A stretch of 64,000 nt of DNA from Polycladomyces zharkentensis (GTDB lineage Bacteria; Bacillota; Bacilli; Thermoactinomycetales; JIR-001), in the NCBI RefSeq assembly GCF_016938855.1, contig NZ_JAFHAP010000004.1, positions 124,001 to 188,000 on the forward strand, in the 5' to 3' direction. This document shows, piece by piece, positions 47,741 through 64,000 of this stretch. The translations under genes were made by a program, and so were the position numbers. Position 1 is the stretch's first letter. Each line of letters opens with the position of its first letter. The notes under the pieces are model-generated. The model ran no database searches. It had not been told where the DNA came from and saw only the letters and a list, made by a program, of their open reading frames with translations.

Positions 47741-49198
47741 ATGATGCCCAGACAGTATCAAACACCGCTGTTTACCAAGCTGAAAGAACACGCGGCAAAG
47801 AATCCGATCCAATTTCACATACCCGGACACAAAAAAGGGCATGGCATGGACCCCGAATTTCGCGATTTCATCGGTCCCAACGCGCTCTCCATCGATTTGA
47901 TCAACATTGCGCCCCTGGATGATCTGCACCATCCGCACGGTGTGATCCAGGAAGCGCAGGAATTGGCGGCGGAGGCGTTTGGGGCGGATTACACATTTTT
48001 CTCCGTTCAGGGAACCAGTGGTGCCATTATGACGATGGTGATGTCCGTCTGCACACCGGGAGACAAAATCATCGTCCCGCGCAACGTTCACAAATCCGTG
48101 CTGTCCGCCATCATTCTCGCCGGCGGCCATCCGGTATTCGTGCATCCGGCCATGGACGATCAGTTGGGCATCGCGCACGGTGTCACCGCCCGTGATGTGG
48201 AAAAAGCCCTCCGCGCCCATCCGGATGCCAAAGCGGTGTTGTTAATCAACCCGACCTATTACGGTATAGCCGGCAATTTGGCCGAAATCGTCGATCTGGT
48301 TCACCGTTGGAACATTCCGGTGCTGGTGGACGAAGCGCATGGGATTCATACGCATTTCCACGAACGGCTCCCCATGTCCGCGATGCAGGCCGGGGCAGAC
48401 ATGGCCGCCACCAGTATGCACAAACTGGGAGGATCGCTGACGCAAAGCTCGGTCCTCAACGTCAAGGGCGAGCGTATCAATCCCAATCGGGTGCAATCCA
48501 TCATCAGCATGCTGACGACCACATCCACATCGTATTTGCTCTTGGCTTCGTTGGATGCGGGGCGGCGTTTTTTGGCCACGCAAGGTCACGCTCAATTCGA
48601 GCGGGCATTGATGTTGGCCGATCAGGCGCGCAAACGGATCAACGAAATCCCGGGCATCGTCTGTGTCGGCCGGGAAATCCTCGGATCCGACGCCACATAC
48701 GATATGGACGAGACCAAGCTGACCATCCATCTCAAACATTTGGGCATTACCGGTTATGAAGCGGAAAAATGGTTGCGTCAGAACTGGAATATCGAAGTGG
48801 AACTGAGCGATCTGTACAACATCCTGTGCCTCGTCACCCCCGGCGATTCAGAAGAGACGATCGGCTTGCTGGTAGAGGGGCTGCAGGATTTGTCCCGGCA
48901 TTTTTATTCGCCCGACCGGAAAAACGGCGGTCCGATCCGCCTGCCGGATATCCCGGAGTTGGCAGTATCACCGCGGGACGCGTTTTATGCGGAAACGGTC
49001 GCCGTCCCGCTGGAGGAGTCGGTCGGTCGCATCATTGCCGAATTCATCATGATTTATCCGCCGGGAATCCCGGTATTGTTGCCCGGTGAACGCATCACGC
49101 AACAAAACATCGATTACATCCGCGAACATATGCAAGTGGGATTGCCCGTCCAGGGTCCCGAAGATCCCGATATCCGAATGGTACGCGTGATCCGCTAA
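47741..49198 (+). CDS. speA: Arginine decarboxylase (Orn/Lys/Arg decarboxylase family)
   Basis: 485 residues, PLP-dependent fold I. PFHIPGHKKG-like FHIPGHKKGHGMDPEF, DDLHHPHG, and the PLP-lysine motif in TSMHKLGGSLTQSS. First step of polyamine synthesis in B. subtilis (agmatine route). Start at ATG 47741 after GAGAGGCATGCAACC; the long upstream frame to 47456 is not coding. Lysine decarboxylase activity cannot be excluded, but the neighbouring SR1P gene supports speA. Confidence 0.9.
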   Translation: MMPRQYQTPLFTKLKEHAAKNPIQFHIPGHKKGHGMDPEFRDFIGPNALSIDLINIAPLDDLHHPHGVIQEAQELAAEAFGADYTFFSVQGTSGAIMTMVMSVCTPGDKIIVPRNVHKSVLSAIILAGGHPVFVHPAMDDQLGIAHGVTARDVEKALRAHPDAKAVLLINPTYYGIAGNLAEIVDLVHRWNIPVLVDEAHGIHTHFHERLPMSAMQAGADMAATSMHKLGGSLTQSSVLNVKGERINPNRVQSIISMLTTTSTSYLLLASLDAGRRFLATQGHAQFERALMLADQARKRINEIPGIVCVGREILGSDATYDMDETKLTIHLKHLGITGYEAEKWLRQNWNIEVELSDLYNILCLVTPGDSEETIGLLVEGLQDLSRHFYSPDRKNGGPIRLPDIPELAVSPRDAFYAETVAVPLEESVGRIIAEFIMIYPPGIPVLLPGERITQQNIDYIREHMQVGLPVQGPEDPDIRMVRVIR

Positions 49199-49230
49199 AA
49201 ACCCGCCCATCCTCATGGGTGGGTTTTTAG
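49197..49230 (+). terminator. Intrinsic terminator of speA
   Basis: AAAACCCGCCCAT-CCTC-ATGGGTGGGTTTTTAG, overlapping the stop codon end. Confidence 0.92.
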
Positions 49231-49244
49231 CACCTTGAATCGCA

Positions 49245-49280
49245 CAAAAAAGCAAACACCACCCGTCAGAGGGGTGGTGA
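49245..49280 (-). terminator. Minus-strand terminator downstream of SR1P-like gene
   Basis: Minus strand CACCACCC-CTCTGAC-GGGTGGTG then TTTGCTTTTTTG. A near copy of the stem without the T tail is at 49566-49588 on the other side of the M element. Confidence 0.8.
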
Positions 49281-49565
49281 GTCTGCTGACAAAACGGTCC
49301 GACGTATGATCAGATTTCCCGGCTCTCTCCCCCTGCACCCTGCAAGGAAGCCGAACAAGGCCGTTGCAAACCGGAGACACAGGAATGCGGGCAAGCCTCA
49401 CTTTACTTCAAGTAGGTACTTGCCCGCGAATCAATTCCCGTTCTTCGAGGTTAGGGCCAGTAGCTCACCCGGAAAAACGTTGCGTTCATTTGCCGGACGC
49501 TTTCCGCAATTCCCGTCGAGTACAAAGGTTCAGAGCGGAAAGCGTGGACTTCGCCAACAACCTGA
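49281..49565. repeat. M-family element, copy 2
   Basis: Left end GTCTGCTGACAAAACGG, right end TCGCCAACAACCTGACC, matching the ends of the 63057-63255 element (ACTGCTGACAAAGTG; TTGTCAATAACCTCAAG). The interior is mostly different, with a long inverted repeat around CGGGCAAG ... CTTGCCCG (49389-49426). Confidence 0.55.
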
Positions 49566-49623
49566 CCACCTGTTCCGAGGGGTGGTGAATCCAACGGCTG
49601 TGCCTGTCGGTTTTGTATTTTGG

Positions 49624-49764
49624 TCATGCGGTTTGCGATACTCTGCGTTGTTCGCGCTGTTTTTCCTCACCGCATCCAGGACATTTGCCGTACAACACAC
49701 CGGCTTTCTCGGCTTCCGTGAAGGCGATGATCTTGTCGCACTGTTGGCAGACAATCACTTCCAT
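49624..49764 (-). CDS. SR1P-like peptide (GapA-binding peptide family)
   Basis: 46 residues beginning MEVIVCQQCDKIIAFTEAE and ending in a basic tail, with paired C-x-x-C motifs (VCQQC, KCPGC). The N-terminal IVCQxC...I..xExEK..xLYG layout matches B. subtilis SR1P (IVCQDC ... LYGTC), the peptide encoded by the dual-function RNA SR1, which binds GapA and stimulates RNase J1. In B. subtilis SR1 also lies next to speA. Start follows AGGGGGATTTTTC; promoter at 49818-49846. Confidence 0.82.
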   Translation of the reverse strand: MEVIVCQQCDKIIAFTEAEKAGVLYGKCPGCGEEKQREQRRVSQTA

Positions 49765-49817
49765 GAAAAATCCCCCTCACGCGGAAATGTAACCGCTTCA
49801 ATTAATATGTCACTATT

Positions 49818-49846
49818 AGTATAATATGATGTCATATTTATGTCAA
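49818..49846 (-). promoter_or_regulatory. Promoter of the SR1-like gene with CcpN-like site
   Basis: Minus strand TTGACA (49846-49841), 17 nt spacer, TATACT (49823-49818), close to SigA consensus. On the plus strand GATGTCATATT (49828-49838), inside the spacer, matches the CcpN operator consensus as I recall it (TRTGHYATAYW) at 10 of 11 positions. CcpN represses sr1 under glycolytic conditions in B. subtilis. Confidence 0.65.
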
Positions 49847-50005
49847 TGCACACCGAATAATTGGGCTTATTTCACCAAAAATAAAACCGCGAGGTACGGG
49901 ATTGAGAAACACTTTCTCCCGTTATACCTCGCGGTCGGTTTCACTCCTGCAATGAGCGGCGGTATATGGTGGATCAACCAAATCGGACATGACTGTCATC
50001 TCCGT

Positions 50006-63029: not shown

Positions 63030-63056
63030 CACAAAAATCCCGCCCATACGGGCGGG
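63030..63056 (-). terminator. Terminator left of M element copy 5
   Basis: Minus strand CCCGCCC-GTAT-GGGCGGG followed by ATTTTTGTG. The same 22 nt stem sequence recurs at 63279-63300 without the T tail. Confidence 0.85.
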
Positions 63057-63255
63057 TTGAGACTGCTGACAAAGTGTTGAACCACTCCGAATTCCGGGTG
63101 CACCGTTTTCCCTCTCGCTCCTGTTTCGCTGGCTCAAAGGTCGCTCGTGGGAAAACGGCCACCCTATTTTTAGGTAGCGGGTACGAATTTCCCGTTGAGC
63201 GACTTTAGCTGCCGCTTCGGAGCGGCACGGCCGCGGAGTTTGTCAATAACCTCAA
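63057..63255. repeat. M-family element, copy 5 (most complete)
   Basis: About 199 bp with imperfect terminal inverted repeats: TTGAGACTGCTGACAAAGTG at the left, AGTTTGTCAATAACCTCAA at the right. Inside is a large hairpin CCGTTTTCCC ... GGGAAAACGG (63103-63158) and a second one around AGCTGCCGCTTCGGAGCGGC. No open frame of note: MITE-like. Confidence 0.72.
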
Positions 63256-63579
63256 GCCTACTTTAACTGAGCAGGCTTTCCCGCCCATACGGGCGGGTTG
63301 TCCACAACGCAGACGGGACGTTTTCTTCCTACGAGAAGTGCACTCGGTCCACACAAGACCGCAGGCGATTCATTCGGACTGTCTGGTGAATCCCCTGCTC
63401 CATCTGCGGCCCGGACGGAAGCGAATCATGACCGCTCCGACACGAAGTGACAGGCCGCGAAGCAGACTTCGATTAGAGGAAATGGGCCGCAATTCCATTC
63501 CGGCGCTTGCCGGGTCTTCGCTCAGCCGAGTCTTTACTTACCGGGAAAACTTGCGCGGAAATGACCGGACACACCCTGG

Positions 63580-64000
63580 TCAGCCAACTCTGGCGTATCC
63601 AAGCGAAGTACTTTCCGTCCCTTCTTGGCCATAGGAGCGAGGAAGCTCCGACGGCGGAATCGGCGATTCTTCATACTCCGATTTCTTTTCCAACGGCTTC
63701 GGCTGGTTCGGCGGCACTTTTTCCGATTCCGGTATCTGCCGTGGCGCTTCCGGTACCGGGTGCGGCTGGTTACGAATTTCTTCCGGACCGTAGATCGACA
63801 CCGTCAACCTGCCGTACCGTGCATGCGTCACGATCAGTACCGGCTGATTCAGTTGATTTTGAAACCGGAAATCGGCTCCACCCCACGAGACAGTTGCATC
63901 CCGTCCGACCGGAACATAAGTGACCTCTTTACTGTGGCTCACTCGCTGGATAATACGCAATCCCGCTTGGTCAACGGCGTTGAACAAGGTACTGGACGTT
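63580..64000 (-). CDS. VanW-family protein, C-terminal part
   Basis: Partial; the frame continues past the right edge. The VanW domain end is clear: TSSTLFNAVDQAGLRIIQR, HSKEVTYVPVGRDATVSWGG and DFRFQNQLNQPVLI, as in YoaR-like wall proteins. It is followed by a proline- and glutamate-rich tail (IPESEKVPPNQPKPLEKK). Role unknown; such proteins are often secreted and carry G5 domains. Confidence 0.85.
   Translation of the reverse strand, partial: TSSTLFNAVDQAGLRIIQRVSHSKEVTYVPVGRDATVSWGGADFRFQNQLNQPVLIVTHARYGRLTVSIYGPEEIRNQPHPVPEAPRQIPESEKVPPNQPKPLEKKSEYEESPIPPSELPRSYGQEGTESTSLGYARVG

Follow-up and report, generated by a model that had tools for sequence, protein, structure and literature searches.

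The DNA beside speA in the window (the whole 64,000-nt stretch analysed here) carries an SR1-type gene whose 3' end appears to have been rebuilt by mobile DNA. According to the reading we prefer, with a probability of about 0.83, a small element, E2, inserted at the terminator of this gene and duplicated its hairpin; the downstream copy now ends transcription, a second repeat, E1, lies nested within E2, and the transcript would reach 566 nt. What seems new here is the remodelling of the 3' end of an SR1P gene, together with a small IS1182-type element apparently able to duplicate terminators, though the latter may already be published. The features on which this reading is based are collected in Table 1.

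Table 1. Features of the SR1 locus and its surroundings (positions within the window)
Feature	Position	Strand	Evidence and remarks
speA (Orn/Lys/Arg decarboxylase), convergent with sr1P	47747..49198	+	ORF; Pfam PF01276, 355.7 bits, and PF03711
Right (downstream) terminator hairpin copy with T-rich tail, predicted present SR1 terminator	49246..49280	-	-14.2 kcal/mol
E2 insertion at SR1	49279..49564	-	left end CAGGTTGTTGGCGAAG within 49546-49564; right end CCGTTTTGTCAGCAGACTC at 49279-49297
Core of the E1 repeat, inside E2; limits approximate	49295..49500	+	genome matches, copy alignment, sister comparison
Left (upstream) terminator hairpin copy, no T-tract	49565..49588	-	direct repeat of 49258-49280; -7.7 kcal/mol
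sr1P, 46 codons and stop	49624..49764	-	Pfam PF13790, 8.8e-11, 42.3 bits (cut-off 26); 91% identical in two congeners
Match to Rfam antisense_SR1 (RF02376)	49674..49811	-	33.8 bits, E 1.3e-4; gathering score 45
cre-like palindrome TTGAAGCGGTTACA in leader	49788..49801	-	12/14
Second CcpN-like site, transcript start	49804..49814	-	10/11; register common to seven relatives
Sigma-A type promoter TTGACA-17-TATACT	49818..49846	-	11/12; identical hexamers in both sister species
CcpN-like site in promoter spacer, GATGTCATATT (plus strand)	49828..49838	+	10/11

The SR1P gene, its RNA and its regulators

A 46-codon gene with VCQQC and KCPGC motifs, convergent with speA, had been proposed from the bare sequence, and both parts of this proposal were borne out. 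The frame is present, its product (MEVIVCQQCDKIIAFTEAEKAGVLYGKCPGCGEEKQREQRRVSQTA) exceeds the curated cut-off of the Pfam SR1P family, and the decarboxylase gene ends at 49198, its start being an inferred one in a frame open from 47456. Judged by homology, the frame encodes SR1P, and its membership of this peptide family is secure. A genome search recovered SR1P in 49 of 61 genomes, the window's own included, and 12 gave none. These genomes hold 52 SR1P places, 51 of which were analysed; the one left out, in G022, scores 22.9 bits and falls below the cut-off, and among the 51 retained one locus (L078, 24.8 bits) is also under the Pfam threshold. The first CxxC pair is kept in all 51 loci and the second, as CX2-4C, in 48, and a convergent speA lies within the flanking DNA examined in 34 of the 51, in one case at 1.35 kb. 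Residues L24 and Y25 are invariant in an alignment of 17 SR1P sequences, and the peptides of both sister species are identical to each other. Related peptides also occur, as named matches, in Thermoactinomyces, Laceyella, Kroppenstedtia and Paludifilum records. In the part of a 2021 paper available to us, SR1 homologues are reported solely in Bacillus and Geobacillus (PMC8501984), and our literature search found no paper joining Thermoactinomycetaceae and SR1P; the present matches place the peptide outside those two genera.

The RNA itself is recognised in part by the Rfam model of SR1. Indeed, the alignment starts exactly at the predicted +1, 49811, and spans the first 138 nt, whereas the 3' half of the model found no match at the window's SR1 gene. 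The score remains under the gathering score of the full-length model, which was reached by 4 of the 20 other SR1P loci scanned. We regard the locus as truly related to the small RNA gene SR1 of Bacillus. A single native SR1 3' domain was considered for the 3' region and ruled out by the unmatched half of the model. The inserted repeat was also compared with known Rfam families; besides SR1, the region 49150-50000 gave two matches only, with E values of 0.55 and 1.3.

The search for partner genes was successful throughout, since ccpN, gapA, gapB and ahrC are all present in the genome. The ccpN gene is a full-length match to the NCBIfam equivalog NF053704 (347.6 bits, cut-off 260) and adjoins the PPPase gene, gapA belongs to a cggR-gapA-pgk cluster, and the gapB promoter carries two perfect 11/11 matches to the CcpN consensus (L147:1425-1469); the names pgk and nrdR were assigned by eye from ORF lists. 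In the known SR1/SR1P system, the peptide binds GapA and has a stimulatory effect on RNase J1. By homology, the peptide encoded here would bind GapA under gluconeogenic conditions.

The locus thus resembles B. subtilis SR1/SR1P in its peptide family, its speA neighbour, its promoter type and the 5' half of the RNA model, as well as in having ccpN, gapA, gapB and ahrC in the same genome. It differs in length (205 nt for B. subtilis SR1 against a predicted 566 nt here), in the repeat DNA that makes up its 3' half and in a weaker CcpN match. The original prediction held that the whole circuit is kept here; this is true of the regulator genes and does not extend to the 3' half of the RNA or to the strength of the CcpN operator.

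Promoter and candidate operators

The near-consensus promoter proposed earlier was found at 49846-49818 on the minus strand and sets the predicted start of the SR1 transcript at about 49811. This sigma-A promoter would drive an mRNA for SR1P with its two cysteine pairs. The consensus of the CcpN operator is taken as TRTGHYATAYW and that of the cre site as TGWNANCGNTNWCA. Scored against these two consensus sequences and set against shuffles that ignore common descent although related SR1 loci are non-independent samples, CcpN-like sites of at least 10/11 are present in 43 of the 51 SR1 promoters (14.1, sd 2.9 and maximum 20, in 60 shuffle rounds), and cre-like palindromes in 26 of the 51 leaders at 12/14 or better (3.4 in shuffles, maximum 8) and in 15 at 13/14 or better (0.25, maximum 2).

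For CcpN, 36 of the 51 loci place their site at one common register in the spacer, and the spacer site of the window is displaced from it by 3 nt. Shuffling alone yields one or more 10/11 matches in about 28% of promoter regions (a mean of 14.1 of 51), and in the SR1 promoters of the sister species (L061 and L062) no CcpN match attains 10/11. The operator announced for the spacer is present at 10/11; taken singly, such a match is near chance. Compared with most other genera, the CcpN operator at the window's SR1 gene is the weaker one, as far as matches to the consensus can tell.

The cre-like palindrome starts 15-16 nt past the -10 box in 21 of the 26 loci that reach 12/14. Lying just downstream of the predicted start, it may allow CcpA to act as a roadblock. 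The arrangement differs from that in B. subtilis, where, in the part of the source available to us, CcpA binds about 260 bp upstream of SR1 and has a minor effect (PMC7430163).

In this genus, SR1 would be under the control of CcpN, perhaps joined by CcpA. On another reading, CcpN control of SR1 was lost or weakened in the genus, and CcpA became the main catabolite regulator through the leader palindrome, or SR1P became constitutive. The sister promoters devoid of a 10/11 CcpN match speak for such a change, and so does the cre-like site, which scores 12/14 in all three congeners and is enriched over the 51 loci. Against it stand the full-length ccpN gene, the two perfect sites in front of gapB and the second 10/11 site of the window, which is retained in register; moreover, the dependence among related loci and the assumed consensus sequences temper the enrichment itself. 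A loss of CcpN control is possible, though we think it unlikely; it concerns control only and would be compatible with the insertion of E2 at the terminator.

The duplicated terminator hairpin and the nested repeats

On the SR1 strand, the region downstream of sr1P reads, in order, TCACCACCCCTCGGAACAGGTGGT (49588-49565), the left end of E2, the nested E1, the right end of E2, TCACCACCCCTCTGACGGGTGGT (49280-49258) and TTTGCTTTTTT. A terminator beyond the inserted DNA had been proposed, and a hairpin with a T-rich tail is indeed found there, the hairpin proper occupying 49279-49257 on the minus strand. The earlier view that an inserted "M element" lengthens the transcript also agrees with the repeat DNA between frame and terminator and with the longer predicted RNA; the single element, however, has to be replaced by two, E1 inside E2.

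The two hairpin copies are not equivalent. In the sister species, the left copies fold at 0.0 and -0.7 kcal/mol and the right copies at -17.2 and -15.7 kcal/mol, and weak or unfolded left copies beside strong right ones fit a transcript that now terminates at the downstream copy alone. The upstream copy would have lost its T-tract context and be decaying, and the downstream copy, which retains the T-tract, would be the present terminator. Since hairpin and T-tract are kept together downstream, termination would have been preserved and E2 would have become a new 3' UTR. The SR1 transcript is accordingly predicted to end at the right hairpin after about 566 nt. Of the 48 other SR1 loci scanned, 45 have a predicted terminator, at a median of 28 nt past the SR1P stop and within 89 nt in 39 of the 45, with the reservation that the scan returned none in 3 of the 48 and skipped nearer terminators in some far cases (L075, for instance, by eye). 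The corresponding distance is 344 nt in the window and 211 and 195 nt in the two congeners.

Alternatively, the long 3' end could be native to SR1 and serve, as it does in B. subtilis, for antisense pairing with the mRNA of ahrC (or kinA), the repeats being incidental. The genome does contain ahrC, and the best SR1-ahrC duplex reaches -26.0 on an in-house scale built on assumed stacking energies, but 17.5% of 40 shuffles were equally good, in a test without power, as the strong control G055, whose SR1 scores 194.8 bits with the Rfam model, failed as well (62.5%). The share of shuffles that did as well as the real pair ranged from 20 to 100% in five other genomes, and in the sister species the best ahrC pairing sites lie elsewhere, with 100% and 97.5% of the shuffles as good. 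The unmatched Rfam 3' half and the short distance from stop to terminator in most other loci speak against a native antisense domain, which we consider very improbable; the shuffle test, being weak, bears little on the pairing.

Insertion of E2 at the SR1 terminator is better understood from the other copies of this element. E2 is a non-autonomous repeat of roughly 200 bp with tens of copies; strong matches are confined to the window's genus, and short weak ones appear in 2 of the 58 other genomes. Its right-end motif, TTTTGTCARCAGTCTC, occurs with at most two mismatches 41, 37 and 47 times in the three genomes of the genus, as against 1, 5 and 2 times for the reversed control. Left-end matches number 57 against 51 for the control in G002, and 69 against 39 and 65 against 44 in the others; being barely or less than twofold above control, the left-end motif alone is weak.

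The right ends show a clear association with terminators. Right ends with no more than one mismatch number 54; a scan of every one at spacings of 0-8 nt showed 21 abutting a hairpin with a T-tract, in each case at 0-2 nt, while 0.9% of 1884 random positions did so; a hairpin alone lies next to 30 of the 54 (13.9% at random). Similarly, 6 of 9 left ends directly follow a hairpin (9.8% of 2700 positions), these nine having been taken from at least 18 exact ones for the lack of a listed right end nearby, and hairpins beside some of them having been noticed before the count was made. Flanking direct repeats reach a score of 14 at 5 of 54 E2 sites, SR1 included, and at 0 of 155 swapped-flank controls; at a score of 12, the counts are 9 of 54 and 3 of 155. 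The hairpins on the two sides copy each other at SR1, L190, L195 and a locus at 63 kb, and at L105, which also scores 14 or more, the left end of E2 is missing next to the left hairpin copy.

Comparison of filled and empty sites gives the direction of the change. At L195 and at the queC locus, E2 is present in the window's genome and a single hairpin in both sisters; at the ileS locus, two genomes are filled and the third keeps one hairpin (all by eye, as were the gene names queC and ileS). Among four insertion loci, three were usable and gave five empty sites with a single hairpin, L190 not being comparable. Single hairpins at the empty sites of sister genomes indicate that insertion duplicates the hairpin. 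The duplicated hairpin and the filled and empty sites can be read off the aligned genomes, and the manner in which the inserted DNA arrived is a reconstruction in which we have fair confidence.

It could be argued that the two hairpins do not reflect a target duplication, either because a terminator came in with the element or because the resemblance is coincidental. Near-palindromic GC-rich hairpins are easily alike, and 49 of the 54 E2 sites have no flanking repeat scoring 14 or more. However, the hairpin differs between loci and matches within a locus (22/22 at 63 kb), the empty sites of the sisters carry the hairpin of the given locus once, and none of the swapped flanks attains a score of 14. 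We give very little credence to either possibility. Since most E2 sites score below 14 for duplication, and 33 of 54 lack a predicted terminator, either E2 would only favour terminators or numerous copies would have decayed.

A second copy of E2 occupies 63038-63302 of the window, with CAACCCGCCCGTATGGGCGGGA on both sides (22/22) and 26 extra nucleotides between the left copy and the left end; the gene that precedes it has a VanW-like sequence. By eye, this copy is adjoined at about 63375-63590 by a repeat similar to E1, its ends being GTCTGGT...ACCGGACAC.

E1 gave at least 31 matches in its own genome, itself included, 40 of the 64 candidates having been scored, and many of the 30 aligned copies have ends similar to GTGTCTGGT and ACCAGACAC. 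It is, by eye, a structured dispersed repeat, often with CTAG or CTGG at the junction. The E1 core is absent from the aligned SR1 loci of both sister species. In the window's species, its presence within E2 would account for the predicted 566-nt transcript.

E2 itself is probably older at this site. The SR1 loci of both sisters align with it, G001 keeping a recognisable right end and G002 a core match of 61 nt (E 4.8e-5). All three congeners appear filled, so that the empty state of SR1 is deduced from other genera. In our reconstruction, E2 inserted at the intrinsic terminator of SR1 in an ancestor of the genus, this timing being inferred, and duplicated the hairpin there. The two sisters have the same SR1P peptide, yet their inserts share no more than 81% identity over 190 nt; this speaks against the inserted RNA being strongly constrained. 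It would seem that peptide and promoter are maintained and the 3' end of the RNA is left free to vary, a point relevant to how one function of a dual-function RNA might be lost.

A comparable arrangement is seen outside the genus. The SR1 locus of G004, which belongs to another family, has an insert between CGTGCCCATGGTTTAAACCA and CGTGCCCATGGTTCATACCATG; the ends of this insert, TTGATGACAAA and TTTGTCAGCAA, are similar to those of E2, whereas G019, a congener of G004, has a single SR1 terminator. A direct-repeat scan of the SR1 loci, with a spacing limit too short to flag the window itself, returned a score of 17 for L067 and 12-16 for seven other loci; in view of the latter, a score of 17 alone would not carry the case of G004, which is carried by the matching ends and the hairpin. 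Terminator-homing elements might recurrently rebuild the SR1 3' end, with an element-derived structured region replacing the base-pairing one in at least two lineages; SR1 would then be mainly an SR1P mRNA whose acquired 3' UTR possibly controls stability or targets. We consider such recurrence rather doubtful.

Relation of E2 to IS1182-type and other elements

When the listed left and right ends were compared in a search for an autonomous E2 (nine of at least 18 exact left ends), a broken IS in L231 of G002 was found alone, with no active partner. Its left end is identical over 15 nt to the left end of the E2 family (AGGTTGTTGACAAAG), and its right end, TTTGTCA(T/G)CA(A/G)TCTC, is similar to that of E2. 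Relative to these ends, the window copy of E2 has two changes on the left and one on the right. The transposase of the L231 element is frame-shifted, with DUF772 and DDE_Tnp_1_6 matches in its fragments, and the element is bordered on each side by the same 20-nt hairpin. We take the architecture DUF772 plus DDE_Tnp_1_6 to be that of IS1182-type elements. On the basis of the matching ends, E2 would be a small non-autonomous element of IS1182 type.

Group IIC introns insert beside terminators and encode a ribozyme; they share with E2 the terminator-adjacent insertion and differ in the ribozyme and in the lack of a hairpin duplication, since to our knowledge they leave none.

Closer in kind is IS1272/TnSha1 of Staphylococcus, a member of the IS1182 family. 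It is reported to insert at hairpins, including several confirmed transcriptional terminators, to show little preference for particular sequences, and to make blunt partial deletions without target duplication (PMC4923244). E2 likewise inserts at hairpins and terminators, but it duplicates the whole hairpin at several sites, where IS1272, as far as that text goes, deletes part of it. Terminator duplication would thus offer a simple route to long bacterial 3' ends that departs from the partial-deletion mode: where a small element enters a terminator and the hairpin is copied, transcription can still be stopped, and the element ends up as 3' UTR.

Some members of the IS1202 family resemble E2 in their long target duplications, of 16-27 bp, and differ in their TGT...ACA ends; in the available portion of the paper, the authors had not found the targets of the long-duplication members, and terminators are nowhere mentioned (PMC10132070). 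The pneumococcal SPRITE, BOX and RUP are described as small repeats, scattered over the genome, which can be inserted in each other, as E1 lies in E2, with the difference that SPRITE itself carries terminator-like sequence (PMC10969869).

Finally, short palindromes such as GACTGCTGAC..TTTGTCAGCAGTC were observed in L106, L098, L092 and L101, with the appearance of two E2-type ends joined together.
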